From contig JAMNXR010000001.1 of NCBI GenBank assembly GCA_023653055.1, forward strand, positions 124,001-188,000: a stretch of DNA of 64,000 nucleotides, given 5' to 3'. Under the pieces are notes generated by a model. It was not told the origin of the DNA and searched no databases. It saw only the letters and a list, made by a program, of their open reading frames with translations. Made by a program: the position numbers and the translations under genes. This stretch comes from Burkholderiaceae bacterium (GTDB lineage Bacteria > Pseudomonadota > Gammaproteobacteria > Burkholderiales > Burkholderiaceae_B). Of this stretch, positions 1,812 to 34,987 are shown piece after piece (position 1 is the stretch's first letter; the number at the start of each line of letters is the position of its first letter).

Positions 1812-1934
1812 CCTCCGATTATATTTCAGGATGAATGGTTTACTCAGAGTCTGTCATACACGCGAGACCCAATATAATGTTGGATGAAATGCTGCGTGCG
1901 TCTAATGTCGCAACAAAACCTTAGGATATTCTGG

Positions 1935-4825: not shown

Positions 4826-5805
4826 TTATTAGTCGAACACCCTTAAGAATGAGTTTAGTGGGCGGCGGCAGCGATTTACCTGCGTTCTATCAGCGCGAAG
4901 AAATCGGTGCAGTCGTGAGCTCTGCCATTGATAAATATATTTATGTCACCGTCAATAAAAAATTCGATGATGGTATTCGAGTTGGCTATTCGATCAACGA
5001 AGAGGTCAGCAATGTTGCCGAGATTAAGCATCCCCTTGTTAAAGCGGGCATGCAATATTTGGGGTTGAAGGGTGGCGTTGAGATCACAACGATTGCAGAT
5101 ATTCCGTCCAAAGGCACGGGGCTTGGGTCATCAAGCTCTTTCACGGTTGGGTTGCTGCACGCCTTAAATGCCTATATGGGAAAGTACAGTTCTGCTGAGG
5201 TGCTGGGCAGAGACGCATGCCATATAGAAATTGATCTTTGTAAAGAGCCGATCGGTAAACAAGACCAGTATGCCGCTGCTTACGGTGGTTTTAACTTAAT
5301 AGAATTTAGGCCTGACGAATCAGTCGTTGTGTCTCCCCTGATCTGCAAGGCGTCTACGCTGCTGTCGTTGCAGTCAAGCTTATTGTTGTTTTACACTGGC
5401 TCAACCCGTAATGCGGCAAGTATTTTAAAAGAACAGTCCGAATCACTTTCTAATAATCAAGACAAGCTAGACTCACTCAGACAAATGGTACGGCTCGCCT
5501 ACAATTTAAAAGACGAACTGCAAGCGAATAATCTTGATGCATTCGGAGAGATTTTGCATGAAAACTGGGTGCTTAAAAAAAGTCTAGTGGCAAATATTAG
5601 TAGTCAAGCGATTGACCAGTGGTATGACACCGCCTTAAAGGCAGGAGCCAAAGGCGGCAAGATTCTTGGAGCAGGAGCTGGCGGGTTTTTGTTGTTAATT
5701 GCGCCACCCGAAAAACATGATGCGATCAAGAAGTCTTTATCAACGTTAAGAGCCATCCCGATAGGGCTAGATCCTCTTGGCAGCAGGATAATTTTCTATA
5801 CATAA
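4822..5805 (+). CDS. hddA: D-glycero-D-manno-heptose 7-phosphate kinase (GHMP family)
   Basis: A 327-residue GHMP kinase of HddA type. The N-terminus MIISRTPLRMSLVGGGSDLP is characteristic, the ATP loop GTGLGSSSSF sits at residues 98-107, and the C-terminal GHMP motif GAKGGKILGAGAGGFLL is near residue 275. HddA phosphorylates D-glycero-D-manno-heptose 7-phosphate at C1 to the 1,7-bisphosphate. The next steps, GmhB phosphatase and HddC guanylyltransferase, are encoded in the upstream fusion. The start overlaps that gene's stop as ATGA. Length is typical of the family. Confidence 0.88.
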   Translation: MIISRTPLRMSLVGGGSDLPAFYQREEIGAVVSSAIDKYIYVTVNKKFDDGIRVGYSINEEVSNVAEIKHPLVKAGMQYLGLKGGVEITTIADIPSKGTGLGSSSSFTVGLLHALNAYMGKYSSAEVLGRDACHIEIDLCKEPIGKQDQYAAAYGGFNLIEFRPDESVVVSPLICKASTLLSLQSSLLLFYTGSTRNAASILKEQSESLSNNQDKLDSLRQMVRLAYNLKDELQANNLDAFGEILHENWVLKKSLVANISSQAIDQWYDTALKAGAKGGKILGAGAGGFLLLIAPPEKHDAIKKSLSTLRAIPIGLDPLGSRIIFYT

Positions 5806-5832
5806 AGATCGAGTTCGATCAGGAATAATATT

Positions 5833-6399
5833 ATGGCGTTGGGCAAAGGCATTGCAAGCTTATATTTAGACAAGTTGATTCAGCTACTGACAGACGTTAA
5901 TCGTGAACAGATTGATCACGGCGTTCAAGTTGTCGCAGATGCGTGGCTTGCGGGAAAACAGATTATCACCTTAGGTAATGGTGGTAGTTCGATGACCGCC
6001 TTACATTTCATTAACGACTGGAACAAGACGATTCCGATGCATACACAACGCAGCTTTCGAGGGCGTTCGTTGGTGGATAACATTGGTCTGATGATGAGCT
6101 ATGCAAACGATATTTCTTTTGAGGATATTTTCGTCGGTCAGCTCAAAAACATATTGCAACCGGGTGATCTCGTTTTGGCAATATCTGGCAGTGGAAACTC
6201 AGAGAACGTTATCCGCGCGGTCGAATACGCAAATCAAAACGGTGCGGTCACCTTGGGTTTGTGTGGCTACAGCGGTGGAAAATTAAAGCAAATTTCGCAA
6301 CACGTCGTTTGGGCTGAAATAGATGATATGCAGCTCGCGGAGGATTTTCACTTTATGTTCGGACATATGGTGATGCAACGTTTGGCCGGGTATTGCTAG
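5833..6399 (+). CDS. gmhA: Sedoheptulose 7-phosphate isomerase (SIS domain)
   Basis: A 188-residue SIS-domain protein matching GmhA in length and layout. The phosphosugar-binding loop TLGNGGSSMTALHF is at about residues 46-59 and the second loop ISGSGNSENV at about 117-126. GmhA converts sedoheptulose 7-phosphate to D-glycero-D-manno-heptose 7-phosphate, the first step of the pathway. It follows hddA by 27 bp on the same strand and ends the heptose operon; its stop lies one base from that of the convergent gene at 6401. Whether this is the cell's only gmhA or a second copy dedicated to GDP-heptose cannot be told from the window. Confidence 0.88.
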   Translation: MALGKGIASLYLDKLIQLLTDVNREQIDHGVQVVADAWLAGKQIITLGNGGSSMTALHFINDWNKTIPMHTQRSFRGRSLVDNIGLMMSYANDISFEDIFVGQLKNILQPGDLVLAISGSGNSENVIRAVEYANQNGAVTLGLCGYSGGKLKQISQHVVWAEIDDMQLAEDFHFMFGHMVMQRLAGYC

Positions 6400-15418: not shown

Positions 15419-16573
15419 CTAAGCCGTTTTAGCACTCATTGCTAAGCGGCTAACAACTTGGCATTGCTGATCTTCAGTTAGGCCGACAAAGAGAGGTAGC
15501 CTCACAAGTCGCTCGGACTGTAAGTCTGTTATGTCGAGACTTCCGTGCGTTCTTCCGTAGCGAACTCCAGCTGGGGACGAATGTAACGGGACGTAATGGA
15601 AAACAGCACTGATTGATTGCATTTTAAAGTCCTTTAGTAAGGCTTCTCTTTGGTGCGCAGAAGGCAAGAGCACATAGTAAAGGTGGCCGTTGTGTATGCA
15701 GTCACTAGGCACAATGGGTCGACGCAAAAGGCCCGCCGCTTCGAGGGGCTCGAGCAATTGATGATACCGCTGCCAGCTTGCTATCCTTTGGTCTGTGATT
15801 CGTTGGGCATCTTCGAGTTGTGCCCATAAAAAGGCCGCAATCAACTCACCCGGTAGAAACGAAGATCCTATGTCCTGCCAAGTGTACTTATCAACCTCAC
15901 CCCGGAAAAATCGGCCCCGGTCGGTACCTTTCTCTCGAATGATCTCAGCCCGCTGTGCTAAGTTTTTGTCGTTAACAATAAGTGCACCACCCTCACCAGA
16001 GATTACGTTTTTTGTTTCGTGAAAGCTTAGTGTGCCGAGGTCCCCAATGGAGCCAAGGGGTTTGCCTCGATAGCTCGCCATCATCCCCTGGGCTGCGTCC
16101 TCAACAACCTTAAGGCCGTGCTTACGGGCAATACTCATTAACCGATCCATATTGCAGGCAACACCCGCGTAATGAACGGCGACAATTGCCTTGGTTCTTG
16201 GTGTTATCGCATCTTCAATTTTTTCTTCATCAAGATTTAGCGTGTCTTCTCGTATGTCAACAAATACCGGTACTGCTCCACGCAGAACGAATGCGTTTGC
16301 TGTTGATACAAAAGTATAAGAGGGCATGATTACTTCATCACCCTGCTCGATGTCCAGAAGAAGGGCTGTCATCTCAAGAGCAGCAGTACACGAGTGTGTG
16401 AGAAGTGCTCTTGCGCACCCAGAGTGCGCTTCGAGCCATTCGTGACAGCGCTTGGTAAACGGACCGTCACCTGCCAATTTGCCATTGAAATGAGCTTCAG
16501 CGATGTAGAGGAGTTCTTTCCCCGTCATATGGGGAAAATTAAATGGGGTGCGATCAAATGGAAGATTGCTCAT
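15419..16573 (-). CDS. wecE: dTDP-4-amino-4,6-dideoxygalactose transaminase
   Basis: A 384-residue DegT/DnrJ/EryC1 aminotransferase that I recognise as WecE/RffA from extended matches such as GDEVIMPSYTFVSTANAFVL, HYAGVACNMD, REKGTDRGRFFRG and KYTWQDIGSS. The PLP-binding lysine is K188 (SFHETKN) and the cofactor aspartate is D159 (VVEDAAQG). WecE converts dTDP-4-keto-6-deoxy-D-glucose to dTDP-4-amino-4,6-dideoxy-D-galactose using glutamate. The substrate could come from the rfbB product encoded at 58932. A GGGAG site lies about nine bases before the ATG. An acetyltransferase encoded at 18834 could complete dTDP-Fuc4NAc. Confidence 0.93.
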   Translation of the reverse strand: MSNLPFDRTPFNFPHMTGKELLYIAEAHFNGKLAGDGPFTKRCHEWLEAHSGCARALLTHSCTAALEMTALLLDIEQGDEVIMPSYTFVSTANAFVLRGAVPVFVDIREDTLNLDEEKIEDAITPRTKAIVAVHYAGVACNMDRLMSIARKHGLKVVEDAAQGMMASYRGKPLGSIGDLGTLSFHETKNVISGEGGALIVNDKNLAQRAEIIREKGTDRGRFFRGEVDKYTWQDIGSSFLPGELIAAFLWAQLEDAQRITDQRIASWQRYHQLLEPLEAAGLLRRPIVPSDCIHNGHLYYVLLPSAHQREALLKDFKMQSISAVFHYVPLHSSPAGVRYGRTHGSLDITDLQSERLVRLPLFVGLTEDQQCQVVSRLAMSAKTA

Positions 16574-21295: not shown

Positions 21296-22231
21296 TCACT
21301 CCGATTTTGGCTCGTTTCGATAGATATGGCGAATGATGGTGTACGGGCGTTGCTTGACCTCGGAAAAAATCTTGGAGAGGTATACGCCTTGTACGCCAAG
21401 AAAGAAAATAATAAGCCCAGAAAAAAACCAGATGGATGCAATAAGGGATGTGTAGCCGCTTGGGGGCGAGGAAACCAAGAAGTAGAGTACAAAGAGGTAG
21501 GCTATGTACAACAACGCTGAGATTGATATAAACAATCCAGAATAGAATGTATAAACAAGCGGTAGGGCGGTAAACGATGTGATGGCATTGACTAAATGAC
21601 CGAATTTTCCAGATAAAGTGTAACTTGTAGGGCTAGTCGAATGCTTATTAACTAACTGAGTTGCTTGCTTGAAGCCAGTGACAATCCATAACCCTCCAAT
21701 ATTCATCTCCCGTTCTCGATGGAGCAACAGGGCTTGAACGTAGCGCCGTGTCATTAGCCGTGCAGTCACTATATTGTCGGGTTGATTAATTCCGCTTAAT
21801 GTGCGGAACAGTTTGTAGAAAATTGCGCCTGTGACCCTTTCGAAGGCAGCACCTTTGCGGTTCCTTTGTATGCCGTGGACAACATCACATCGTTCTTGCT
21901 CCATCTGTAAATCGAATTTCAAAAGCCATTCTGGCTCTTCTTCGAGGTCACTATCAACTAGAAAAATTCGCTCCCCTTTGGCGTGAGCAAGACCCGTCAT
22001 CATTGCCTTGTGATGCCCAAAATTGCGCGATAAATCAACAACGATAACTTGAGAATCCTGCTCCGTAAGTGTGATCGCTAGCTCTAGACTGTTGTCAGGC
22101 GATCCATCGTTTACAAGAACGATCTCATAATCGTCGCCAACAAGCTGCTTTGCAGTGGCAGTCGCACGCTCGTAAAATTCGTTGATATAAGGCGCTGACT
22201 TGTAGAGGGTCGCAACGATCGATAGCTTCAT
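21296..22231 (-). CDS. Polyprenyl-phosphate-type GT2 with C-terminal membrane helices
   Basis: A 311-residue GT2 of the GtrB/ArnC/DPM1 kind. From ATG 22231 the N-terminus is [20 protein letters not shown]; the acidic sites are [10 protein letters not shown] and [15 protein letters not shown], and the C-terminal third has two strong transmembrane stretches ([20 protein letters not shown] and [19 protein letters not shown]). Such enzymes load a sugar onto undecaprenyl phosphate at the cytoplasmic face for later transfer by a GT-C enzyme, and the locus encodes several GT-C-like proteins. It overlaps wbqC's stop as ATGA. Confidence 0.88.
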
Positions 22232-22920
22232 GCAACATGTCTCATATAGCGCGAGGAGTCCTTCCCGCAATTGAACAAAAGATCAAGAATCGTCACGCCA
22301 TGAGTAAACTCACCCCAAAGTTGCGGATACTCGGGGTAATCGGCATATTCGAACCACGTAAGCTTAATTCCAAGATCGGCAAACACCTTCTCATCGATAT
22401 AGTCTTTTGCCGTTGGGCCGGAAACGTACTCGGTCCCTCCTGCTTGAACACATATATCGGCAAGTCGTTCGGTCTTGCCATTAGTTAGCGTGTAGTCCCA
22501 TGAGTTTTTAATGACTGTTTTGATTGCTAAATAATTGCAGATGCTCTCGATAAAGCGACGGTTGAGTTGTGAAATATGGGTATACGAGTCTTGGACGTAA
22601 AGCGGTTCCAACCATGCTGCGATTTCAGAAAAGTGTGCAGCACGACGGTAGTTTTGCACTAAACCCTTCCAGTGCACAACGGCCCAATCAGTACCGTCAA
22701 TTTTTGTTTCGCGGATTTTTTGATGGTATTTGCCCTTCACCAACGCGGGCACTGCGAGCCACTGAACACCTTGAGGTGTTTTAATTTGGTTTCGGTTGCG
22801 CCAGTCTCGGCGTGTATATTGCATGTCGTCGTAAAGAATGAACTCATCCACGGACGCAATCATGTCGAAGTAACCTTTCCAAGGAATATAATTCGACTGT
22901 GAAACAGCAACTTTCTTCAT
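22228..22920 (-). CDS. WbqC family protein
   Basis: A 230-residue member of the WbqC-like family, recognised from [38 protein letters not shown] and the later [19 protein letters not shown]. The family occurs in O-antigen and other glycan loci; its biochemical role is not settled. It is the first gene of a packed minus-strand run (wbqC, GT2, PhyH, methyltransferase). The divergent intergenic region to the sulfotransferase (about 280 bp) should hold its promoter. Confidence 0.88.
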
Positions 22921-23125
22921 TTTATTCTTAGTAGTACGGGTTTTATGTCATCTTTCAGTCAAAAAAGTCGATGTTTCGAACTTTTAAAGTGCTGGCAAAA
23001 AGAAATTATTTGCGAAAGTTGCGGGCGCCTAAGCTCAAATTTCCCAAGAATTAAACGCTTGACTGATGAAAATCATATTTTGTTCGTCGCTGTTTGGGAG
23101 CGAAAGGGTTTTAAGGGATCACTCC

Positions 23126-23144
23126 AATCTATTTGAAATAGATT
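23126..23144. promoter_or_regulatory. Perfect 19-bp palindrome upstream of sulfotransferase gene
   Basis: AATCTATTT, one central G, then AAATAGATT: nine-base arms with no mismatch. It lies in the divergent region between wbqC and the sulfotransferase, 55 bp before that ATG. A TTGAAA sequence overlaps its centre and could serve as a -35 element. It could be an operator; no regulator is identified. The half-site ATCTATT recurs in the palindrome at 54818. Confidence 0.35.
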
Positions 23145-23199
23145 TAAGACAATACAATATACCTTAAACTGATACTAAATTGTCCCTCGGAATTTATAT

Positions 23200-24153
23200 A
23201 TGTCAAACTTTAACTTTGTGATGGTTTCTGCCGGCTTTGAACATGGTGGCAACGTGACGCACCGGCATCTTGATGGCCACCCACAATTGTTGGTATACCC
23301 GTTTGAATCACAGTTAGGAAATCGTAATTTCAACGATTTTCTGGCTTCTGTCGAGCGCGTTCAGTATCGCTACCCAGAGTTCCCCGAGGGATTGACTGCC
23401 GAAGAGCTGTACGAGCAAATGATCGATGAAGAGATGAAGACTTTTCTGAGAAAAAAAACGGGCTCGAAATTTAAGGATGCAGATCTGCAATTTGACGAAG
23501 CCGACAGGCTGAGCGAATTCAAGCGTTTGTTGGGCTCTGGGCCATATTCACGCAGAGCAGTGATCGAAGCGTTTTTTCGTGCAACCTTTGCTTCGTGGCG
23601 AAATTACTATATGACCCCTCAAGACGGGATGTCTTATGTGGGGTATTCGCCGGCTATTGGTATTGACGCAGATCGCATCATTCGTGATTTTCCGAATGCA
23701 AAAATCATGCATATTGTTCGTAACCCGTTCTCTGCGTATCGCGATACAAAGCGACGCCCGTTTCCCCAGCCTTTAAGCAAATATCTCATCACCTGGAATA
23801 TCTATCATTCAACAGTCGAGATGTATGCCAAGCAATTTCCGGATAACGTGCGTATTTTTAGATACGAGGATCTGGTAGAAGACAAAGAACAGTTCATGAA
23901 AAATGTGGCGAATTTTATCGGTGTGCAGTATGCGCCCACTATGCTGTACCCAAGTTGGAATGGCGTTGAAATAAAAGATAGCATTGCGCCCTGGGGTACC
24001 GTTCTTAAAAGCACTAAGGCCTACAACGAAAGCGTTATCAATGAACTGAGTGATAATGAAAAATCCCAAATCGTTGCGGGTACGACCGCTTTAGCAAGAC
24101 ACTTTAAATATGATCAAGTTGACTATTTAAAACAATACTATCGTGCTGAGTAA
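23200..24153 (+). CDS. Sulfotransferase family protein
   Basis: A 317-residue protein of the PAPS-dependent sulfotransferase fold. The 3'-phosphate-binding motif is clear: KIMHIVRNPFSAYRDTKRR near residue 168, followed by IFRYEDLVEDKEQFMKNVA. The N-terminal PAPS loop is divergent: where the family usually has a PRSGTT-like sequence, this one has VSAGFEHGGNVTHRHLDGHP. It might sulfate a sugar of the glycan from PAPS in the cytoplasm. Given the altered loop, activity should not be assumed. Its stop overlaps the next start by 11 bp, implying co-translation with the kinase-like gene. Confidence 0.78.
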   Translation: MSNFNFVMVSAGFEHGGNVTHRHLDGHPQLLVYPFESQLGNRNFNDFLASVERVQYRYPEFPEGLTAEELYEQMIDEEMKTFLRKKTGSKFKDADLQFDEADRLSEFKRLLGSGPYSRRAVIEAFFRATFASWRNYYMTPQDGMSYVGYSPAIGIDADRIIRDFPNAKIMHIVRNPFSAYRDTKRRPFPQPLSKYLITWNIYHSTVEMYAKQFPDNVRIFRYEDLVEDKEQFMKNVANFIGVQYAPTMLYPSWNGVEIKDSIAPWGTVLKSTKAYNESVINELSDNEKSQIVAGTTALARHFKYDQVDYLKQYYRAE

Positions 24154-25039
24154 GCTTAGACACTTTGCTTACGATCGGCGAGAGCAGCGGTTAGATAATC
24201 ATTTAGACGAGAGTCAACTTAGTTTGCTATTGCAAGAGCACAACATATTTTCTTCGAGCATTAGGCGAATAAACGGGGGCACGTTAGGGCTGAGCTATTC
24301 CCTACAAATAGACGGGCGACCCAAGGTATTAAAAACGCACTTTAGCGCAGTGGGCCGCCAAAATATTGAAAAAGAAATAGGGCTACTGCGCGTGCTGTAC
24401 GCAGGCGAAAGTGAAATGAGTAGGCTAGAGTTGACCAGCGATCAGCTGGTTAGGGTGGCGTTATTGATGGATGAATTTAAATATCCTCAACACGAGTTGG
24501 AGCCGAGTCAAATCATAAGCTTAACGGCACAATTTACGGCGCAATTCAAATGCAATGCCACGCCGGACGTTATTGCGCCTAAAGACACCATGTCAACGCT
24601 CTTTGCCGAAGGCGTGGCTTCACTCGCGCGACTCTACACGAATCAGGCAATCCGTCCGGCGATACACACAGCTGTTGAAAAAAATTTTTCGCTTCTTTCA
24701 GAGCATATTGATGGCTTGCCCGTTGCGCTTTGCCATGGTGACCTCGGCCCTGAAAATATTATGTGCCAAACTGATTCAACGCCCGTAGTGATCGACTGGG
24801 AAGATGCCTTTTGGGGTGTGGAAGGATATGACTATCTGTACTGGCTGACTTTTTTGCGTAACAGAAAATATTACGCACAAGATATTTTAGGTAAAACCTC
24901 TTTAGGCAAAGAAATCGAATTGGCTATTTTGGTGCTTATCGTGGTTTTAAAAAGCGAGCTGTCTCTCCGAATGGATCCGCAGATGAACAGACAATTAAGT
25001 TTTGATCAACGTATTACCGAAATACTTGAGCTGAAATGA
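24143..25039 (+). CDS. APH/choline-kinase-type phosphotransferase
   Basis: A 298-residue kinase-fold protein starting at GTG 24143 inside the sulfotransferase gene's end. The Brenner motif is ALCHGDLGPENIM, with the metal-binding aspartate in VIDWEDAFWG, both standard for aminoglycoside/choline/homoserine kinase relatives. In a glycan locus it might phosphorylate a sugar or a small substituent such as an amino alcohol; the substrate cannot be deduced. Coupled to the sulfotransferase and followed 43 bp later by an epimerase. Confidence 0.75.
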   Translation: MLSKLRHFAYDRREQRLDNHLDESQLSLLLQEHNIFSSSIRRINGGTLGLSYSLQIDGRPKVLKTHFSAVGRQNIEKEIGLLRVLYAGESEMSRLELTSDQLVRVALLMDEFKYPQHELEPSQIISLTAQFTAQFKCNATPDVIAPKDTMSTLFAEGVASLARLYTNQAIRPAIHTAVEKNFSLLSEHIDGLPVALCHGDLGPENIMCQTDSTPVVIDWEDAFWGVEGYDYLYWLTFLRNRKYYAQDILGKTSLGKEIELAILVLIVVLKSELSLRMDPQMNRQLSFDQRITEILELK

Positions 25040-25082
25040 TTCGCGTGCCGATATTCTTGCGTATACAAGGCTGCCCCAAGTG

Positions 25083-26117
25083 ATGCGTATTTTTGAATCC
25101 GATCTAAAGCAAATTACCGAGCAAGCCACGCCAGATTTACTTGCGCTCAGACGTTCGCATATATTTCTTACTGGGGGTACGGGGTATATCGGACGTTGGT
25201 TGCTTGAAGCGCTTTGCTACGCAAATACCGTTTTGAAATTAGAGTTGAAGTTGACTGTCTTGAGTCGAGCACCTGACCAGTTTCGAAGCAATTACCCTCA
25301 TCTCAGTGACAGGTTGGTCGTCAACTTTATCGAAGGTGACATCAGAACCTTTCAATTTCCGCAGGACGCCTTTACGCACGTTATACATGCGGCAACAGAT
25401 GTGATCGCGACCAATCCTGCGTTAGAGACTTTCGATGTGATTGTTTCGGGCACTAAGAGATTGCTTGATTTTTGTCTTGAAAAAAGGGTTGAGCATGTTT
25501 TGCTTTTAAGTTCTGGAGCGATTTATGGCCCAATCCCAGCAACGATTGATCTTGTTTTCGAGGACTATTCTGGTGCTCCCCGAGTAAGTGATCTTGGTGC
25601 GGCGTATGGCATGGGTAAACTGGCGGCTGAATGGTTGGGCACGGCCTATTCAGCTGACAGATCGATGGCCTGCAAAGCTGCGAGGGTGTTTGCTCAAATT
25701 GGGCCTCATCTTGCCCTCGACAAGCAGTTTGCTGCAGGAAATTTTCTACTTCATGCAATAAAAAAAGAGCCTTTTCTGATCAAAGGGGATGGAACAGCCC
25801 TAAGATCCTATATGTACGGTACCGATTTGGCGGTTTGGCTGTTGCGTATCCTCGTGCAAGGTGAGGCGGGCCGCGCATATAACGTCGGCTCAAGTGACGC
25901 GATTTCTATTTATGAACTTGCCAAGTTGACAGCAGAGGTTGCAGGTATAGTGACGCCAATCATCCAAATTAAGGGCAAGCCCTTGCTGGGTCAGCCACCT
26001 GAGCGCTACATACCTGACATTTCGAGAGCACGAGATGAGCTAGCGCTGGATGTTAGGGTCGACTTAAGAGACGCGCTGTCTCGGACGCTCGATTGGTTCC
26101 GTGATCATCACAGGTGA
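25083..26117 (+). CDS. NAD-dependent epimerase/dehydratase or reductase (SDR)
   Basis: A 344-residue extended SDR. The cofactor motif GGTGYIGRWLLEAL is near residue 32 and the active site comprises SSGAIYGP and Y-x-x-x-K in AAYGMGKLAAEW. The insertion VFEDYSGAPRVSDLG before the Tyr is reminiscent of CDP-sugar and nucleotide-sugar reductases (such as CDP-paratose or CDP-abequose type enzymes), but I cannot assign it. It lies immediately before the transketolase pair (the next gene starts within the gap after its TGA), which suggests reduction or epimerisation of the product of that pair. Confidence 0.8.
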   Translation: MRIFESDLKQITEQATPDLLALRRSHIFLTGGTGYIGRWLLEALCYANTVLKLELKLTVLSRAPDQFRSNYPHLSDRLVVNFIEGDIRTFQFPQDAFTHVIHAATDVIATNPALETFDVIVSGTKRLLDFCLEKRVEHVLLLSSGAIYGPIPATIDLVFEDYSGAPRVSDLGAAYGMGKLAAEWLGTAYSADRSMACKAARVFAQIGPHLALDKQFAAGNFLLHAIKKEPFLIKGDGTALRSYMYGTDLAVWLLRILVQGEAGRAYNVGSSDAISIYELAKLTAEVAGIVTPIIQIKGKPLLGQPPERYIPDISRARDELALDVRVDLRDALSRTLDWFRDHHR

Positions 26118-26122
26118 GAAAC

Positions 26123-26935
26123 ATGATTGATGTTGCAACACTTGCAAAGAAAATTCGTTTAAAAATTGTCACGTTGTGTTTTCAAAAAAAAACATCGCAC
26201 GTGGGGGGGGCGTTGTCCGTCGCCGATATCCTCGCAGTTTTATACGGTAAAGTTTTGGATATTTCGCCAGCCAGGATCAAGGACCCTTCACGAGATCGCT
26301 TGTTCTACAGCAAGGGTCATGCTTGCACCGCCTTATATGCAGCGTTAGATTTAAAGGGTTTTTTTGAGCCTAATGCGCTATCCGAGGGCTTTACTACGGA
26401 TGGAAGCTACTTTACCTCGCATATCAATCATCAATTGCCAGGAGTTGAACTGTCAACAGGAAGCCTTGGGCATGCTTTAGGCGTTGCATGCGGTGTGTCA
26501 CTTGCGGCAAAGCGAAGGCAGCAACCTCAAAGCATCTTTGCAGTTTTAAGCGATGGTGAATTAGACGAGGGTTCTAATTGGGAGGCGATCATGTTTGCAG
26601 CCCATCATCACTTAGATAATTTGATCGCTATCATCGATTACAACAAGATTCAAAGTTTTGGGTCTGTTCAAGAAGTGATAGGCCTCGAACCACTCGCCGA
26701 TAAATTTAAAGCGTTTAACTGGGATGTCACAGAAGTAGATGGCCATTGCCTTGAGCAGTTAGTGTCGACGTTGAGCCAGGCTAAAGCTAACCGGTCGGGT
26801 AAGCCTAAATGCGTAATCGCACATACGGTCAAGGGAAAAGGCGTAAGTTTTATGGAGAACAAACTGGCGTGGCACTACAAGTCGCCGAACGACATTGATT
26901 TTCAAGCCGCCTGCCTTGAAATAGAAGCCTCATAA
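26123..26935 (+). CDS. Transketolase, N-terminal (ThDP pyrophosphate-binding) subunit
   Basis: A 270-residue protein corresponding to the first domain of transketolase. KTSHVGGALSVADILAVLY and FYSKGHACTALYAAL are typical, and the thiamine diphosphate motif reads SDGELDEGSNWEA, ending in DYNKIQSFG; the usual Gly at the start of GDG is Ser here. The ATG at 26123, with GGTGAG upstream, is preferred to a GTG at 26114. The partner subunit follows two bases after its stop. Split transketolases of this size occur in glycan and specialised sugar pathways and transfer a two-carbon ketol unit. Confidence 0.9.
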   Translation: MIDVATLAKKIRLKIVTLCFQKKTSHVGGALSVADILAVLYGKVLDISPARIKDPSRDRLFYSKGHACTALYAALDLKGFFEPNALSEGFTTDGSYFTSHINHQLPGVELSTGSLGHALGVACGVSLAAKRRQQPQSIFAVLSDGELDEGSNWEAIMFAAHHHLDNLIAIIDYNKIQSFGSVQEVIGLEPLADKFKAFNWDVTEVDGHCLEQLVSTLSQAKANRSGKPKCVIAHTVKGKGVSFMENKLAWHYKSPNDIDFQAACLEIEAS

Positions 26936-26936
26936 C

Positions 26937-27857
26937 ATGCGAAACACATTTATCAATACCTTGACTGCACTTGCAGAAAATAACAAGGACATATTTTTGC
27001 TCTGTGGCGATCTTGGCTACTCAGTTCTGGAGCCTTTTGCCGCTAAATTTCCAGAGCGATTTTTAAACGTAGGCATCGCCGAACAGAATATGACCCAGGT
27101 GGCAGTCGGGCTTGCGAGGGAAGGCTACAATGTTTTTACCTATTCGATCGGTAACTTTCCCACCCTGCGCTGTATGGAGCAAATACGTTACGACGTTTGT
27201 TACCATCAAGCGAACGTCAAAATTGTTGCTGTAGGTGCGGGTTATGCCTACGGACCGCAAGGCGTGTCTCACCATACAACAGAAGACATCGCAATGCTGC
27301 GCGCTATTCCTAATATGCTTGTTTGTGCGCCTGCGGATCCGGTAGAGGCCGCGGCTGCAGCCAGGTTCATGGCAGGGTGTGCTGGACCAGGTTATGTGCG
27401 TATTAACAAGTCAGGTGAGTCATGTATTCACGATCCTTCAGCTCAGCTAACAATAGCGCCTGGAAATTTTTTACCAATTCGCACGGGATCGTCGACGGCA
27501 GTACTCTCAACCGGAGCGATGTTGAGTGTGGTGATGAAAGATATAGAGCGGCACGCCCTAAATTATGCGGTGTTTAGTGTCCCTTTCATCGGTCACTATG
27601 ATCGTCAGACTTTAATTAATCTGACGGAACAATTTGAAGAGATTGTTACGGTAGAAGAACACCAGTTGAACGGCGGCTTTGGCAGTTCGATTATGGAAGC
27701 GTTAGGTGATCTTTATAGTGAACGCGGTATCGAACGAATGCCGCGAGTACGGCGCATCGGTATCCCGAATAAATTTTTTGGTATGTCCGGCAGTCAAGAT
27801 TATTTGCGAACGGTGGCGAAGCTACACCTCACTGACGACCGTAGCGACGAGAAGTAA
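26937..27857 (+). CDS. Transketolase, C-terminal (pyrimidine-binding) subunit
   Basis: A 306-residue partner of the preceding protein. The pyrimidine-domain glutamate motif is FLNVGIAEQNMTQVAVGLA, followed by a C-terminal domain with VTVEEHQLNGGFGSSIMEAL. Together the two subunits equal a full transketolase of about 580 residues. They are encoded between an epimerase and a FkbM methyltransferase, not near central-carbon genes. A dedicated role is therefore likely, such as adding a two-carbon branch to a keto sugar (inference). Confidence 0.9.
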   Translation: MRNTFINTLTALAENNKDIFLLCGDLGYSVLEPFAAKFPERFLNVGIAEQNMTQVAVGLAREGYNVFTYSIGNFPTLRCMEQIRYDVCYHQANVKIVAVGAGYAYGPQGVSHHTTEDIAMLRAIPNMLVCAPADPVEAAAAARFMAGCAGPGYVRINKSGESCIHDPSAQLTIAPGNFLPIRTGSSTAVLSTGAMLSVVMKDIERHALNYAVFSVPFIGHYDRQTLINLTEQFEEIVTVEEHQLNGGFGSSIMEALGDLYSERGIERMPRVRRIGIPNKFFGMSGSQDYLRTVAKLHLTDDRSDEK

Positions 27858-27926
27858 GTACAGAATCATATTTAATCAATATATGAATCAAGTGATGAGA
27901 GCGATCAAGTTGATAGGGGTATGGCG

Positions 27927-28655
27927 ATGTCTGATAAGTACACAATGAGATCCATCATCAAGGGGCTCACCCCACCGATGCTTTGGAAGTTACTCAGAGA
28001 TACAAAACTGCGAGTAAAAAAATATCACGGCGCAGAACAAATAGATGCAATCATCGAAAAATATCTTAATTACCGCAACGGCTATTATGTTGAGCTTGGC
28101 GCTGCCGATGGGATCGGATTTTCTAATACCTTGTTTTTTGAGTTGCATAAAAACTGGTCAGGAATACTGATCGAACCTTCACCGAATAACTTTCTGCAGT
28201 GCCTTGCAAATCGATCGGACCGAAACTCATTTTTTTGCAATGCGTGTACGTCCTTTGATTACCCTGAAAAATTCGTAGAAATGATTTACGCGCACTATAT
28301 GACTGCCGCAGTTGGGCTGGAGTCGGACGTTATTGATCCCGTTAAGCACGCTTTAAGTGGTTCACGTTATCTAGCAGCAGATACTGAGAGGGTATTCAGA
28401 TACGGGGCTATCGCCAGGCCTTTAAACGCATTGTTGATCGAAGCGGGCGCGCCAAAATTAATTGATTTTCTCTCATTGGATGTTGAGGGCGTAGAAATCG
28501 AAGTTCTAAAAGGCGTTGATCACGATACATACAAGTTTAAACTCATGTGCATTGAGACTAGAAGTCCAGAGGTATTGACCGCATACCTAAGTCAATACGG
28601 ATATATTCACAAAGAAAAAATCAGCCACCACGACCATATCTTTCTGTTGAAATAA
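27927..28655 (+). CDS. FkbM family methyltransferase
   Basis: About 242 residues. The SAM site reads YYVELGAADGIGFSNTLFFE, then GILIEPSPNNFLQCLANR and DFLSLDVEGVEIEVLKGVD, all hallmarks of FkbM. ATG 27927 has GGGG seven bases upstream; an ATG at 27921 is too close to it. Probably O-methylates a sugar. It follows the transketolase genes by about 70 bp on the same strand. Confidence 0.87.
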   Translation: MSDKYTMRSIIKGLTPPMLWKLLRDTKLRVKKYHGAEQIDAIIEKYLNYRNGYYVELGAADGIGFSNTLFFELHKNWSGILIEPSPNNFLQCLANRSDRNSFFCNACTSFDYPEKFVEMIYAHYMTAAVGLESDVIDPVKHALSGSRYLAADTERVFRYGAIARPLNALLIEAGAPKLIDFLSLDVEGVEIEVLKGVDHDTYKFKLMCIETRSPEVLTAYLSQYGYIHKEKISHHDHIFLLK

Positions 28656-28689
28656 CTTCTGTAATCCCTTTCCTTACGCGCTGGGTTAA

Positions 28690-30650
28690 ATGAAATACAA
28701 GAGCCAAATTGATGGTCTAAGAGCGTTAGCTGTTATTGCAGTCATTTTTTTTCATGCTGAAGTCGTTGGCTTTTCCGGTGGTTATGTAGGCGTCGACATT
28801 TTTTTTGTGATTAGCGGTTATCTGATAACCACTTTGATCTTGCAGCAAATAAGAGATCAGACGTTTTCTTTAGTTGAATTTTGGGAACGTAGAGCGCGAC
28901 GAATTTTACCCGCGTTATTTGTTGTTATTTTCTTCTGCTTGCCTGTCGCTTGGGTAGTTTTACTGCCCTATGACATGAAACAATTTTCTGGTAGTTTAAT
29001 CAGCATCCCATTTTTCTACAGAATTTTTATTTTTGGCGCAACAACACCTATTTCGATCCTTCAACTGACTTCTCTCCGCTAGTACACACTTGGAGCCTTG
29101 CAGTCGAAGAGCAATATTATTTACTGTTCCCATTCTTCCTGTTGCTCACGCGGCGCTTTAAGAAGACATCATTACTTGGGCTCATAGTATTCATCATACT
29201 GATTGAACTCTTAATGCTGCAGACAGTATTTGTCGACAAACTTTCGTTTAAATTCTTTATGCTGCCCACCAGAGGATGGGAAATTTTAATAGGTGCCGCA
29301 GTTGCATGCTACATGATAGATGCTAATAACCGAGATCAATTACCTCAATGGGTCGCTGAGTTATTGAGCGCGGGCGGTTTGCTATTCATACTGTACTCAA
29401 TCTGTTTTTTTGATAAGAACACAGTGTTCCCCGGCTGGGCGACGCTTGTGCCGACGTTCGGAGCCGCACTGATATTGCTCTGCGTCGAGCAGCGAACTTT
29501 TGTAGCGAGACTGTTCGAAATTAAACCCTTGATGGCAATTGGCTTAGTGAGTTACGGTGCATACTTATGGCATCAGCCTCTCTTGGCATTTGCCAGGCAT
29601 ATTTCGATTGATTCGCCCAGCTTACTCGTAAAGCATTTGCTTGCGTTGGGAAGCCTGGTTTGTGGTTGGCTTAGCTACAAGTTTATCGAGCAGCCCTTCA
29701 GAAAGATAGGGCTGATCAGCACCAAAAATTTAGTCATATTTGTGTTGAGTTCAAGCATCGGCTTAGTAGTCTTCGGCGTCTCAGGTCTTTTAACAAAAGG
29801 TTTTGAAAATAGATTCTCTGCGCAACAAAAGGAGTTGTTGGCATACACGCATTACGATGTTGGAACTCTTTGGCGCGTGGGTCAGTGTTTTCTTCAGCCT
29901 GAGCAGTCTTATCACTCATTTGGCAAAAATTGTGTCGGGGACGGCAAGTCTTCACGTGTCATGGTCTGGGGGGACTCCAACGCTGCGGCCCTCTACCCTG
30001 GTTTAAAGCATCAGTTTGAGCATGTCGCGCAGTATTCTGCGAGCGGCTGTCCGCCTGTTCTTTCAATCAATCAGCCCTGGAGACCATTTTGCAAAGAGAT
30101 CAATCAACATGTATTCGAGCAGGTAAAAACACTCAGACCTGAACGATTGATTTTATTTGCGAATTGGATTCTCTATCAGGACATTGATGTGGCTAGTGAA
30201 TTGGCCTCTACGCTAGATGCCATAAAAAAAGAATCTCCAAACACGATTGTCGATGTGATCGGTGGCGTGCCTCAGTGGTACCCATCTTTGCCTGTGTATC
30301 TGTTGAAGAGGAACCTCTATATTGATCAAATCAGTACAGTCATTAATAACGGTTTACCAGCAATTATCGCGCTAGACCAATCGCTTTCTACGATAAGTGC
30401 GCTACATAAAGTACGATTTCATTCCGCACTCGATATACTTTGCGATGGACAGGCATGCCAAGTCACCACCCAGTTTCAAGATAAGCAGGTGCTGACCACG
30501 TGGGATTATGAGCATTTAACCGAAGGCGGCTCAGTTAACTTAGTCCAAAAATATTCGGCAAAAGTCGTTAGGTTTGTCTGTCAAGAGCTGAAAAAAAACG
30601 ACTATGTCAGTGTGTGTGAGATTGGTGTTGAGCAATTTGAGCGAGACTAA
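28690..30650 (+). pseudogene. OafA/YrhL-type acyltransferase with SGNH domain, frameshifted
   Basis: The first frame (28690-29082) starts like a normal acyltransferase-3 protein (SQIDGLRALAVIAVIFFHAE, GVDIFFVISGYLI, RRARRILPALF) but runs off at about 29021, ending in unrelated residues. From there the downstream frame continues NFYFWRNNTYFDPSTD and PLVHTWSLAVEEQYYLLFP, the expected continuation. Its first in-frame ATG is only at 29142. One missing base between 29021 and 29022 restores a single product of about 650 residues: ten-helix acyltransferase plus C-terminal SGNH domain (VMVWGDSNAAAL; late EHLTEGG). Either a true inactivating mutation or a sequence error. Its last 44 bp overlap the convergent rfbG. 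Confidence 0.85.
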
Positions 30651-31695
30651 GCGCAAGCATATCTCCGTGCTCGTGATGTGATCGGTGCCACGTGGATATA
30701 TTTTCGATTGCTACTTCAAGCGACCAGCGTGGGTACCAATTTAATTTGTCATGGGCTCGACCACAGTCTAGGCGCAAAAGTTGTGCCTCGTGCGGTTGAT
30801 CTGCATCGATTAACGTCCACGACGCAGGTCTATGCCAACGCATTGCCATCAATTCAATGACCGAGCTTACGCTGCGCGTATCAGAATCCTGGGGGCCAAA
30901 ATTCCAAGCGCTTGCAAATTGATCTCCATGGTGAAAGAGATTTTCTAAGAGCAGTAGATAACCAGAGAGAGGCTCGATCACGTGTTGCCATGGTCGGATT
31001 GCCAGTGGGTTACGAATGACGACAGGCTCGCCGCTATTAAAAGCGCGTATGGCGTCGGGTATTAAACGATCTAAAGACCAGTCACCCCCACCGATAACAT
31101 TTCCAGCTCTTGCCGTTGCAATTGCCGTACGACCGCCGCCTTGATTTGTCGTGAAATAGGATTTCCGATAGGCTGTGGTTACTATCTCGGCGCAAGCTTT
31201 ACTGCTGCTGTAAGGATCATCCCCGCCCATGGGGTCTGACTCTTGAAATGGGTTGCCATGCTCTTTATTTTCATAACACTTGTCCGTCGTCACTACTAAA
31301 ACGGCCCGGACATAAGGCATCTGACGGATAGCTTCAAGCACGTGCGCTGTCCCTAGGACATTCGTTGTGTATGTTTCAAGTGGATTTGCATACCCGTAAC
31401 GCACCAGAGGCTGAGCTGCCATATGAATGACGATCTCGGCTTGCGAGGCATGCATCGCCTTGACGAGCGCATCAAGATCATTGATGTTGCCAAATATGGA
31501 GGTATCAATTTGGTGCTCGACACCCAAAACCTCGAACAGAGATGGGTCAGTATTAGGCGCTAAAGAAAATCCTGTAACGTGGGCACCCATTGAAACCAGC
31601 CAGACTGAAAGCCAACTACCTTTGAAACCGGTGTGACCCGTTAGGAAAACACGCTTACCTCTCCAAAAGGCTTTGTCAACATTTGCACCAGTCAT
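30607..31695 (-). CDS. rfbG: CDP-glucose 4,6-dehydratase
   Basis: A 362-residue SDR that I recognise as RfbG/DdhB: GHTGFKGSWLSVWLVSMGAH for the cofactor site, then VVTTDKCYENKEH, DPYSSSKACAE with the catalytic Tyr and Lys, and ARAGNVIGGGDWS. It converts CDP-glucose to CDP-4-keto-6-deoxyglucose, the branch point of CDP-dideoxysugars and of branched sugars such as yersiniose. The ATG at 31695 overlaps the rfbF stop as TAATG, with GGAAG upstream; a further ATG at 31710 lies inside rfbF. Its 3' end overlaps the convergent broken acyltransferase gene. Confidence 0.93.
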   Translation of the reverse strand: MTGANVDKAFWRGKRVFLTGHTGFKGSWLSVWLVSMGAHVTGFSLAPNTDPSLFEVLGVEHQIDTSIFGNINDLDALVKAMHASQAEIVIHMAAQPLVRYGYANPLETYTTNVLGTAHVLEAIRQMPYVRAVLVVTTDKCYENKEHGNPFQESDPMGGDDPYSSSKACAEIVTTAYRKSYFTTNQGGGRTAIATARAGNVIGGGDWSLDRLIPDAIRAFNSGEPVVIRNPLAIRPWQHVIEPLSGYLLLLENLFHHGDQFASAWNFGPQDSDTRSVSSVIELMAMRWHRPASWTLIDADQPHEAQLLRLDCGRAHDKLNWYPRWSLEVAIENISTWHRSHHEHGDMLALSLAQIAQHQSHTH

Positions 31696-32459
31696 TACCA
31701 AATCTTCCATGGCGCATCACCCTTCGACCAAAGCTCTTCAAGGTAATTCTTATCGCGTAACGTGTCCATTGGCTGCCAAAAGCCACGATGAAAAAAAGCC
31801 TGCATTTCACCGCCTTTTGCCATTGCCTCGAGAGGTTCGCGCTCCCAGATGGTACTGTCATTTTCAATTAGAGAAAGGCATTCAGGTTTCAACACAAAGA
31901 AGCCGCCATTGATCCAATTACCATCGCCAGAGGGTTTTTCTTGAAAACTGGCGACGGAGGTACCTTGTATTTTGAGTGCGCCAAACCTGCCTGGGGGCTG
32001 AACCGCAGTCATTGACGCAACCTTGCCATGTGCCTTGTGAAAAGCGATGAGTTCGGTGATATTGACTGATGCAACGCCATCGCCATAAGTCAGACAAAAA
32101 TCTCCGTCTAGATGTTCCTCGATACGCTTAATGCGCCCTCCGGTTTGGGTGAGGTCGCCGGTATCCACGAGTGTTATCTTCCAGGGCTCCGCTTTTTGAT
32201 GATGTACCGACACCGAGTTATTTGCTAAATCGATCGTAACATCCGACATGTGCAGGAAATAGTTGGCGAAGTACTCTTTGATCAGATAACCCTTGTAGCC
32301 ACAGCAAACAATGAAGTCATTCACGCCATGGGCGGAATAGATTTTCATAATGTGCCATAAAATAGGCTTGCCACCAATTTCAATCATGGGTTTAGGTCTA
32401 ATGATAGACTCTTCTGAAATTCGTGTACCGAGACCACCCGCAAGCAAAACAGCTTTCAT
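31695..32459 (-). CDS. rfbF: Glucose-1-phosphate cytidylyltransferase
   Basis: A 254-residue nucleotidyltransferase with the standard RfbF features: [20 protein letters not shown] at the N-terminus, [30 protein letters not shown] and the C-terminal [18 protein letters not shown]. It makes CDP-glucose from CTP and glucose 1-phosphate for RfbG. Translationally coupled to rfbG. No rfbH, abe/prt or yerE-like gene follows, so the later steps of the CDP-sugar pathway must be done by other enzymes, for example the epimerase and transketolase upstream at 25083-27857 (inference). Confidence 0.95.
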
Positions 32460-32690
32460 GTTATCCTCAAACTACTTGCTATAAACGGCTTAAGAGTCTG
32501 GAATTAACTCTAAAGTCATTGAACCACGATCAACAGATGCGTGTATATGCGTTAGATTTTAAAACAGCTTTGAGATTGCTAAAAGTCGTCGTCACCAATC
32601 AAGCGCCCTAAAAATAGTTGTATCGGATAATAAACGCGCACGTGATTGATAAAGTCATAAATAGATAGGTTTTTATCGCCTCAACATTCA

Positions 32691-33890
32691 ATGTCAATTC
32701 AAATCACACGCTCTAATAAACTGATTCACCGCATACAAGCTAAACTCAGATTAGACAAAGCCTACGATTTTCTGTCGCAAAAATATCAAAAATATCAAAG
32801 ACAGCGAAGTCATCGGACGCTCAGTAGTCAACGTGCGTTAACGGTTTATTATCATCTTCAGTCTTTGAATACGCACCCATACATTGCTGAGCGCATGTAT
32901 GGAGAATGTGCGCCGTTGGCCTGGTCCAACTACCCAGAAGCGGACGTCGCACATTTTTTGCAGAAACCTGAGGGTGTCGCCAAGCCCTATTTTATTGAGC
33001 CCAATGATCAAATATTGACACCTGGTGTTTATTTTGGCGCCAGTAAACCCTTTGAGATTATAAAGCGGCTGGATGATATTAAGAGTTTAATCGCTTCCAA
33101 TAACTTCAAAGGATTGTTAATTGGCGAAGACGGTTTAGAGGACCAGTTTGTTCATTATTTTGGAACGGAACTCATTCATAAGTTATACAAGTACCCGCAA
33201 ATGCGTTGTATACCAAGAATAAAAATTAACGAAATTAAATGTCACGCTGATCAGAACGGGCGCAATTTTTTATTTTTGGCGTCTGACTATAAATTAAAAG
33301 CAATCGATTTACTAATCGAATCTTGGTTAACAATTAGGCGGCTAAATGGTGCGATCTTAACGATCGCTTGTTCGAATATTCCAGCAAAAGAATTAGATAA
33401 GTTAAGGTCTGTAAAATCAATCAAGATCATTAAAGAAGCTCCACTCTCAGCAAAAACGAAAAAAGCATTATTATCAAATGCAGATATTAGTATCTGTTTG
33501 ACGCACGTCGATGGTGGCGCCAATGCGTGGGAAGGTATCGAATACGGACACCCGATTATTACCAATACCTACCATCGGAGTGATTATCTGACTAAAAATC
33601 AGAATGGGATAGTGATCGACTTCCCCAATCAATTTTATCGTTTAGGCGAATACGGCTTTCGCTTTAATAGTATTGAAGAATATATGGCTAATGTTGAATC
33701 GGAAATGGTTCAAGGCAGATATGATCATGCAAAAGTAAGCTTGGCTGAGAAAATACAAGCGTATATTGATAGTCCTGAGCTAGTCTACGAACATTCGGTC
33801 AAATCATTGCAGCTGGCCTACGAGCAGTCAGTTGCAAAATCAAACGAAAGACTGCTTGAAATATACCGTGAAGGTATTGTTAAGCCATGA
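32691..33890 (+). CDS. GT-B glycosyltransferase (GT4-like)
   Basis: A 399-residue protein. The C-terminal half has a GT-B nucleotide-binding pattern: FLFLASDYKLKAIDLLIESW, ALLSNADISICLTHVDGGAN, then WEGIEYGHPIITNTYHRSDY, where the E of WEGIEYG matches the GT4 donor-phosphate glutamate region. The N-terminal half is less recognisable. It probably transfers a sugar in the cytoplasm. The ATG at 32691 begins about 230 bp after the divergent rfbF start; its stop overlaps the next start as ATGA. Confidence 0.72.
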   Translation: MSIQITRSNKLIHRIQAKLRLDKAYDFLSQKYQKYQRQRSHRTLSSQRALTVYYHLQSLNTHPYIAERMYGECAPLAWSNYPEADVAHFLQKPEGVAKPYFIEPNDQILTPGVYFGASKPFEIIKRLDDIKSLIASNNFKGLLIGEDGLEDQFVHYFGTELIHKLYKYPQMRCIPRIKINEIKCHADQNGRNFLFLASDYKLKAIDLLIESWLTIRRLNGAILTIACSNIPAKELDKLRSVKSIKIIKEAPLSAKTKKALLSNADISICLTHVDGGANAWEGIEYGHPIITNTYHRSDYLTKNQNGIVIDFPNQFYRLGEYGFRFNSIEEYMANVESEMVQGRYDHAKVSLAEKIQAYIDSPELVYEHSVKSLQLAYEQSVAKSNERLLEIYREGIVKP

Positions 33891-34987
33891 TCACTATAAA
33901 ACTGTCACTGCCTGGTTTTGAGACTGCAGATATCAGTCAATTTATTGGCCGTACTGATAATACAGTCAGAGATTGTGTTTTTTTTATTAATCGCGATGAT
34001 GTAAAAACTGCAGATTATTGGTTTTGTTTAGAGGCACCTTATAAACCTATCGAAACCTGTCATATTCAAAAGAAAAATGTATTCTTTCTCACTGCAGAAG
34101 TCGCATGGCCCCGATTTTTTTATGATGGGGAGTTAAAGAAAAATTTTTTAGCACAATTTGCCAAAATTTATACCTGTCATGATATTTATGCGGAAAATGT
34201 TTTTTTTGGATTGCCGTACTTGCCATGGATGATTAATGCCAATCATGGCCAATCTATTTTTTCAGCACATGATAGAGACCGTAATTTTTTTGAAGCGCTC
34301 ACTTTCATTCCTAAAACAAAGACCTTATCTGTGTTTTGTTCGAATCAGATTTGGACAGAGGAGCATCAGCTAAGGCTTAAATTCGTTAAAGCCCTGAAAG
34401 CACACTTTGGTGATCAAATTGACTGGTTTGGCAATGGCGTCCAAACCTTAGAGCAAAAATGGGAGGGCATTGCGCCTTATAAATACCATATTGCGATAGA
34501 AAACCAGTCTCGTAATAACGTCATTACCGAAAAATTATATGACGCATTCTTAGGGTTGGCGTATCCCATCTATTATGGGGCACCCAATGCCAGTGAGTAC
34601 TTTGACTCAAAATCATTTTCCACAATTGATATAGTCGACTTTAAAGGCTCAATTAAAAAAATTGAGAAAATAATTGAAAGCGATTTATATGAACAACGTT
34701 TAAACGCAGTGATTGCCTCGAAGAATCTCGTATTGAGCAAATATAATTTATTCGAGCGAATTGCGGATATTTGTCTGGTCGCTCAATCGACTACGCTGCA
34801 TGCAGATCAGGGGGTTAAGGAAGAGGTGACCTTAATGGCGATGAATCAATTCAATGTAAAGCAAGATTTAAGTGGACTATTGAAAAAAAATAAATTTCGT
34901 CTGATTTTAAAGCGATTGTTATATTACTACCCTGGCCACTTACTGAAGAAAATCAGTACACGTTTATTTCAGCAATACAATAAGTGA
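33887..34987 (+). CDS. Glycosyltransferase family 10 (alpha-1,3/4-fucosyltransferase-like)
   Basis: A 366-residue protein with the diagnostic GT10 core KYHIAIENQSRNNVITEKLY followed by GLAYPIYYGAP, which matches the GDP-binding alpha-1,3-fucosyltransferase motif. N-terminal parts such as VFFLTAEVAWPRFF are less conserved, as usual. The C-terminal tail is basic (LLKKNKFRLILKRLLYYYP), as in bacterial GT10 proteins that bind membranes. It normally needs GDP-fucose, but none of the GDP-fucose genes is in the window. A GDP-heptose-type donor is an alternative. Coupled to the preceding gene by a 4-bp overlap. Confidence 0.85.
   Translation: MITIKLSLPGFETADISQFIGRTDNTVRDCVFFINRDDVKTADYWFCLEAPYKPIETCHIQKKNVFFLTAEVAWPRFFYDGELKKNFLAQFAKIYTCHDIYAENVFFGLPYLPWMINANHGQSIFSAHDRDRNFFEALTFIPKTKTLSVFCSNQIWTEEHQLRLKFVKALKAHFGDQIDWFGNGVQTLEQKWEGIAPYKYHIAIENQSRNNVITEKLYDAFLGLAYPIYYGAPNASEYFDSKSFSTIDIVDFKGSIKKIEKIIESDLYEQRLNAVIASKNLVLSKYNLFERIADICLVAQSTTLHADQGVKEEVTLMAMNQFNVKQDLSGLLKKNKFRLILKRLLYYYPGHLLKKISTRLFQQYNK

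Follow-up and report, generated by a model that had tools for sequence, protein, structure and literature searches.

Gene content of the locus

The window analyzed here is a 64,000-nucleotide stretch of contig JAMNXR010000001.1 from a Burkholderiaceae bacterium (assembly GCA_023653055.1), and the subject of this study is a transketolase encoded there by two genes, TkN and TkC. These lie in the middle of the window, which Pfam and family scans of the window genes identify as a polysaccharide region. A first-pass annotation, made from the sequence alone, had placed this two-subunit transketolase, a short-chain dehydrogenase/reductase (SDR) and the CDP-sugar genes rfbF and rfbG within a few kilobases of each other and had suggested a branched-sugar pathway. 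All of these genes are present, and each named family match lies above its curated cut-off (Table 1). The SDR gene overlaps that of TkN by 4 bases, and TkN and TkC are separated by a gap of 1 base.

Pfam and solved relatives show the layout of a split-gene transketolase, with the PP domain on one chain and the Pyr and C-terminal domains on the other. An AlphaFold2 model of TkC has a mean predicted local distance difference test (pLDDT) score of 86.3; a model of the SDR, with a mean pLDDT of 57.8, was set aside. The SDR keeps the Gly-rich motif, the Ser and the YxxxK motif, and it carries an Arg at the end of strand beta-2, which we take to be a sign of the NADPH type; from this residue, NADPH would be its cofactor. 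A separate full-length transketolase is encoded elsewhere in the same genome. No decarboxylase-type gene dependent on thiamine diphosphate (ThDP) was found in the window, and the TPP_enzyme_N matches of the genome all lie outside it.

RfbH was reported as missing by the first-pass annotation, and indeed the 2.84-Mb assembly around the window, which is 95% complete, contains no match over the cut-off (best match, 141 bits; cut-off, 423 bits). The sole gene matched by the RfbH model (15419-16573) was rejected as RfbH, since it scores 630 bits as a WecE-type transaminase (cut-off, 435 bits). The idea that this absence is telling in itself did not hold up: RfbH was not found at 28 of 40 sampled RfbG loci, and its absence is therefore weak as a sign of a special pathway.

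Table 1. Genes of the surface-sugar region (positions in the window)
Gene product	Position	Strand	Family match and remarks
Sulfotransferase-like protein, possible accessory	23200..24153	+	Pfam Sulfotransfer_3, 49 bits
APH-like phosphotransferase, possible accessory	24143..25039	+	Pfam APH, 55 bits
SDR, extended epimerase/dehydratase family (type 1)	25080..26117	+	Pfam Epimerase, 105 bits; predicted ketoreductase of branched CDP-sugar
TkN, N-terminal ThDP-binding subunit of split transketolase	26114..26935	+	Pfam Transketolase_N, 127 bits; nearest solved structure 6yak, E 9e-65
TkC, pyrimidine-binding and C-terminal subunit of split transketolase	26937..27857	+	Transket_pyr, 107 bits; Transketolase_C, 46 bits; nearest solved structure 6yaj, E 1e-42
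FkbM-type methyltransferase, between TkC and rfbG	27921..28655	+	Pfam Methyltransf_21, 53 bits
Acyltransferase(-SGNH) gene in two open frames	28690-29082 and 29142-30650	+	Each frame is one part of the Acyl_transf_3 domain
RfbG, CDP-glucose 4,6-dehydratase	30607..31710	-	TIGR02622, 482 bits (cut-off 278)
RfbF, glucose-1-phosphate cytidylyltransferase	31695..32459	-	TIGR02623, 470 bits (cut-off 300)

Linkage of a split transketolase clade to rfbF and rfbG

Relatives of the pair were collected from genomes of the class and phylum and with a profile made from five TkN sequences, which matched 594 places in a genome collection; the best 80 of these were taken. TkC relatives occur at 1e-30 in 22 of 369 genomes of the class and TkN relatives at 1e-60 in 49 of 398 genomes of the phylum; the surroundings of 20 of 25 class places, 40 of 59 phylum places and one plasmid were taken. 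Both halves of the pair were found at 136 of the 141 loci (L036, L065, L088, L096 and L124 were dropped because one half was not found), giving together with the window a tree of 137 rows. In this quick tree, built without bootstrap, the clade of the window has a Shimodaira-Hasegawa-like approximate likelihood ratio test (SH-aLRT) value of 94 and comprises 38 of the 137 rows, with a subclade of 11 rows around the window.

The phylogeny of the pair, which the first-pass annotation had proposed as a check, was compared with the presence of CDP-sugar genes. With linkage taken as RfbF or RfbG within about 10 kb of the split transketolase, 17 of the 38 clade rows are linked, versus 2 of the 99 others (Fisher 1.6e-9). 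On the tree, the label for RfbF/RfbG changes 8 times, compared with a mean of 18.1 and a minimum of 14 changes when labels are shuffled. Outside the clade, the two linked rows are L043, where GmhA is present as well, and L063, placed near the clade base. Among the phylum places alone, RfbF/RfbG are found at 6 of 12 clade loci and at none of 28 non-clade loci. By a cross-reading of two lists for the phylum sample, 14 genomes carry a clade transketolase and 12 of these have RfbG (G491 and G438 lack it), versus 95 of 398 overall. RfbF/RfbG accompany 9 rows of the 11-row subclade; in the other two, L060 and L175, the contig ends 91 and 478 bases upstream. For the whole clade, linkage is seen in 15 of 30 rows with at least 5 kb upstream and in 2 of 8 with less than 5 kb. 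The clade row L033, which has no RfbF/RfbG, carries RfbH at the contig end.

The gene orders in relatives are compact. TkN-TkC directly follow rfbF-rfbG in L177, with no SDR between, and in its near kin L174 the order is rfbF-rfbG-rfbH-TkN-TkC. The module reads rfbF-rfbG-TkN-TkC-SDR-GT2 in L035 (GT2, family 2 glycosyltransferase), rfbF-rfbG-rfbH-SDR-TkN-TkC in L052 (Janthinobacterium sp. CG3), rfbF-rfbG-rfbH-SDR-TkN-TkC-GT2 in L068 (labelled Actinobacteria), rfbF-rfbG-SDR-rfbH-TkN-TkC in L135 (Methylovirgula sp. HY1 plasmid, annotated) and rfbF-rfbG-C-methyltransferase-SDR-TkN-TkC in L059 and L062. L053 and L054 are Bacteroidota by label, and modules of this kind occur in three phyla. RfbH lies over the cut-off in L053, L054 and L068, is annotated in L135 and was recognized by blastp in L052, L171 and L174, so that close relatives of the window transketolase occur both with RfbH (L052, L174) and without it (L177). 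The existence of modules of both kinds indicates that the acceptor is probably the 4-ketone of either a 6-deoxy or a 3,6-dideoxy CDP-sugar. In some relatives the branched sugar is probably also C-methylated.

SDR partners shared with decarboxylase-type ThDP enzymes

Type-1 SDRs, searched for with the window SDR at 1e-45, were found in 15 of the 398 genomes. The partner is a transketolase at 2 of the 15 places (the window and L035), a decarboxylase-type ThDP gene, from the superfamily of YerE, is present in the stretch at 11, and neither is present at 2. The 11 consist of L216 and 10 of 12 newly added loci, the decarboxylase-type gene being called by blastp; in L257 it stands several genes from the SDR. 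RfbF, RfbG or RfbH is also found in the stretch at 7 of these 11 loci. In L216 the decarboxylase-type enzyme adjoins, after rfbF-rfbG, an SDR 41% identical to that of the window, and SDRs 36-41% identical to the window SDR stand beside TkN-TkC in L035, L052 and L054.

The same exchange of partners is found with the other SDR types. Type 2 accompanies a transketolase in L034, L057, L059, L062, L068 and L135 and a decarboxylase-type enzyme in L237, where the order is rfbF-rfbG-rfbH-ThDP enzyme-SDR-GT2; type 3 accompanies a transketolase in L053 and a decarboxylase-type enzyme in L226 and L258. The SDR tree does not resolve the partners of transketolases as a separate group, and it places L053 between the YerE-linked L226 and L258. 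At the RfbG places (97 in the 398 genomes, of which 40 were hand-picked, none from genomes with a clade transketolase), a decarboxylase-type ThDP enzyme was found at 8 of 40 loci, five by Pfam and all eight by blastp, with L216 counted both here and among the 11 above; L245 and L250 are the same place. No such enzyme was found in any of the 38 rows of the transketolase clade.

In yersiniose synthesis, the branch is attached to CDP-3,6-dideoxy-4-keto-glucose by YerE, as described in a 2025 review (PMC12247030). Because the same SDR types stand beside YerE-like enzymes and YerE is the known branching enzyme of CDP-4-ketosugars, the transketolase appears to replace it functionally, and on the simplest reading it would occupy the position of YerE in the pathway. 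The shared SDR partner, with 2 transketolases and 11 decarboxylase-type enzymes among 15 places, is the strongest evidence for the branching reading.

Active-site residues

Residues were compared in an alignment with Escherichia coli TktA and are given in E. coli numbering. H26, H66, H100, G114, D155, N185, H261, E411 and H473, which we take to be ThDP-binding and catalytic residues, are all conserved in the window pair, as they are in 25 of 25 clade rows. In the window TkC keeps E411, has G in place of H461 and Q in place of D469. Position 461 is G and position 434, F in E. coli, is I in all 25 clade rows, and position 469 is L, Q, M or A; of 71 non-clade rows, 45 keep H461 and 48 keep D469. 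In a larger set, from which the misaligned H261 column was left out, G461 and I434 are found in 38 of 38 clade rows and position 469 is never D.

H461 normally binds the substrate phosphate, and the E. coli variants H461S and R520V have higher activity on glycolaldehyde and propionaldehyde, as D469T does on propionaldehyde, as described in PMC3657141. A transketolase with the substitutions S385Y/D469T/R520Q accepts aromatic aldehydes, as given in PMC5073344. The loss of H461 and D469 fits a large acceptor that would have no terminal phosphate.

Proposed pathway

The genes, clade, linkage, shared SDR partners and residue changes were computed, and from them we consider it likely that the split transketolase is a C-branching ThDP enzyme that would act on CDP-4-keto-6-deoxyglucose in the role of YerE, followed by reduction by the SDR. 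By family assignment, RfbF would make CDP-glucose and RfbG would convert it to CDP-4-keto-6-deoxyglucose. With a ketose phosphate or hydroxypyruvate as donor, TkN/TkC would use ThDP to transfer a two-carbon ketol unit (hydroxyacetyl) onto the ketone at C-4 of this CDP-sugar, and a tertiary alcohol bearing a hydroxyacetyl branch would result. The SDR would then reduce the side-chain ketone, presumably with NADPH, to CDP-6-deoxy-4-C-(1,2-dihydroxyethyl)hexose, a branched octose that would be destined for a surface polysaccharide. Where relatives also encode RfbH, the transketolase would act on the 3,6-dideoxy form. The step of transketolase-based branching and SDR reduction put forward by the first-pass annotation is thus well supported by neighborhoods in several phyla and by YerE-like enzymes beside the same SDR type, and it stays a prediction from gene content and context.

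In the yersiniose pathway (RfbF-RfbG-RfbH-YerE-reductase), as in the window, genes for CDP-4-keto(di)deoxyglucose, a ThDP carboligase and an SDR form one cluster, and the same SDR types occur near YerE-like enzymes. The carboligase there is of the decarboxylase type, whereas that of the window is a two-chain transketolase from another superfamily; the expected branch is hydroxyacetyl in the window and acetyl in the yersiniose pathway, and RfbH is part of the latter. A further comparison is offered by AviB1/AviB2 and Pau11/Pau12, presumably enzymes of the alpha-keto acid dehydrogenase type. Like the window pair, they are two-protein enzymes proposed to add a two-carbon branch at C-4 of a sugar, but their branch is acetyl and derives from pyruvate, as described in PMC4753412. 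The closest solved relative of both chains is the split-gene transketolase of Carboxydothermus hydrogenoformans (6yaj/6yak), described in PMC7661550 as a heterotetramer and assayed on aldehydes; it keeps H461 and D469, unlike the window TkC.

The route is less novel than the first-pass annotation had suggested. Split-gene transketolases have been proposed to add hydroxyacetyl to a keto sugar in miharamycin and amipurimycin synthesis (PMC12247030), so the idea is not wholly new. As presented in this review, 13 putative Streptomycetes split-gene sequences were chosen by gene context, none of them characterized in vitro, and YerE-like enzymes serve mainly in lipopolysaccharide (LPS) synthesis and transketolases mainly in specialized natural products. 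By their descriptions, the Streptomyces enzymes belong to nucleoside antibiotic pathways, whereas the window pair stands with CDP-sugar genes and would serve a surface glycan. Among the papers listed by a literature search that covered few subscription papers, and is thus weak as proof of absence, none was seen to describe branching by a transketolase in CDP-sugar or LPS pathways; only the review PMC12247030 and the work on paulomycin and everninomicin were judged relevant. The term 'dihydroxyethyl' was absent from the best matches for a known sugar with such a branch. Keto-sugar branching by a split transketolase is thus of a kind already proposed and still unproven, and the CDP-sugar and surface-glycan setting is a new variant.

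On balance, the evidence leans toward a broader proposal, in which a multi-phylum family of split transketolases would build CDP-linked octoses, both 6-deoxy and 3,6-dideoxy, with a (1,2-dihydroxyethyl) branch at C-4 as precursors of surface polysaccharides. The family would have replaced YerE-type enzymes more than once, and modules for RfbH, C-methyltransferase, sulfotransferase and kinase could be joined to it. If this is true, the family would represent natural transketolases that use ketones as acceptors, with a new job for the transketolase family in placing a two-carbon side branch on a cell-surface sugar. It would also imply unseen branched octoses in bacterial surface glycans and offer biocatalysts for hydroxyacetyl-bearing tertiary alcohols. 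The clade beside CDP-sugar genes supplies a substrate that can be made, CDP-4-keto-6-deoxyglucose, with RfbF and RfbG of the same cluster, and the open question can therefore be reduced to a one-pot assay.

Opposing evidence and alternative explanations

Several observations weigh against the branching reading. In the window, rfbG/rfbF (30607-32459) run opposite to the SDR-TkN-TkC genes (25080-27857), a gap of 2.7 kb that holds the FkbM methyltransferase and the acyltransferase lies in between, and the two groups, being convergent and separated by two genes, are not one operon. RfbF/RfbG are not within reach in 21 of the 38 clade rows, and DegT aminotransferases or an aldo/keto reductase stand beside the pair in several of these; because half of the rows with 5 kb upstream have no RfbF/RfbG, a tie to CDP-sugars does not hold for the clade overall. 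R358 is kept in 23 of 25 clade rows (K in 2) and position 520 is mostly K or R, which leaves room for a phosphorylated donor or acceptor. Split transketolases linked to heptose genes also lose H461 (G in 11 of 11) and D469 (10 of 11), and the residue changes were for this reason rejected as sole proof of a CDP-ketosugar acceptor. The label YerE-like reflects the superfamily and position of these genes and not a comparison with YerE itself, and 4 of the 11 SDR loci linked to them (L248, L251, L256 and L257) show no RfbF, RfbG or RfbH in the stretch. Finally, a clade transketolase (L173) and a YerE-like gene beside the SDR (L248) coexist in genome G536, on different contigs, so the two ThDP enzymes exclude each other by locus and not by genome.

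The main alternative, held to be unlikely, is that the split transketolase only supplies sedoheptulose 7-phosphate to heptose-type genes, the nearness of rfbF/rfbG being incidental. Such a set, consisting of an SDR, a nucleotidyltransferase-GmhB-like fusion, an HddA-like kinase and a GmhA-like isomerase, none at equivalog cut-off, lies at 1884-6399 in the window, about 20 kb from the transketolase genes, and a nucleotidyltransferase-GmhB-like gene is present in the clade loci L135 and L055. The preference for basic residues at 358 and 520 would suit this function, and split transketolases do occur beside GmhA or HddA. This linkage is confined to rows outside the clade, with 11 of 99 versus 0 of 38 inside (Fisher 0.034, a modest contrast), and the nearest relatives of the window pair sit instead in rfbFG(H) modules. 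The full-length transketolase of the genome also argues against a supply role, as does the loss of H461 and D469, tempered by the same loss in heptose-linked enzymes.

The GmhA/HddA-linked split transketolases (L037, L038, L039, L041, L043, L044, L045, L047, L050, L184 and L189) belong to other lineages, all without H461. In L135, homologues of the heptose-type SDR and of the fusion of the window lie upstream of the module.

Equally improbable is that the SDR alone consumes CDP-4-keto-6-deoxyglucose, by 4-ketoreduction or by epimerization to a CDP-6-deoxyhexose, and that the transketolase acts on a different nucleotide sugar. Type-1 SDRs with neither ThDP enzyme in the stretch (L249 and L252), which also count against the branching reading, the L177 pair beside rfbF-rfbG without an SDR between and the clade rows without RfbF/RfbG speak for such a division of labor. 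Against it, a ThDP carboligase gene, for which a plain ketoreductase would have no use, is present in the stretch at 13 of the 15 places with a type-1 SDR. In L177 and L035, RfbG and TkN are immediate neighbors, and no other nucleotide-sugar enzyme was found among the scanned genes of window 22231-34984.

A second pentose-phosphate transketolase of central metabolism, for which one could cite the intact set of examined ThDP and catalytic residues and the split transketolases among catabolic genes, for example on a Croceibacterium plasmid, is very unlikely given the position of the pair between polysaccharide genes, the loss of H461 and D469, which many non-clade rows keep, and the full-length transketolase in the genome.

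Accessory genes and distribution

The sulfotransferase-like protein encoded upstream of the SDR is 76-79% identical to proteins in L057 and L168-L170, one of them labelled uncultured Bradyrhizobium, and 42% identical to one in L034. For the same loci this is well above the TkN identity of 52-54%. The APH-like kinase accompanies the sulfotransferase, being 34-37% identical in L057 and L168-L170, with an APH-family protein in L034. The branched sugar may carry sulfate or phosphate groups.

A common type of CDP-sugar locus among the RfbG places combines RfbF-RfbG with an RmlC-like epimerase and a C-methyltransferase-like gene (L213, L217, L220, L221 and others in L208-L247), and a weak C-methyltransferase-like match (22-29% identity) was obtained at 22 of the 40 sampled RfbG loci. 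An aldo/keto reductase lies near the split transketolase in L058, L073, L119 and L172, members of a sister subclade in which CDP-sugar genes are mostly absent. Pau7, which reduces the branch ketone of the sugar in paulomycin synthesis, is an aldo-keto reductase, as described in PMC4753412.

The window SDR gave no match at 1e-30 in plasmid records. TkN matches occur in 14 phage records, all below 60% identity. The two open frames of the acyltransferase gene (28690-30650) point to a frameshift or an assembly error.

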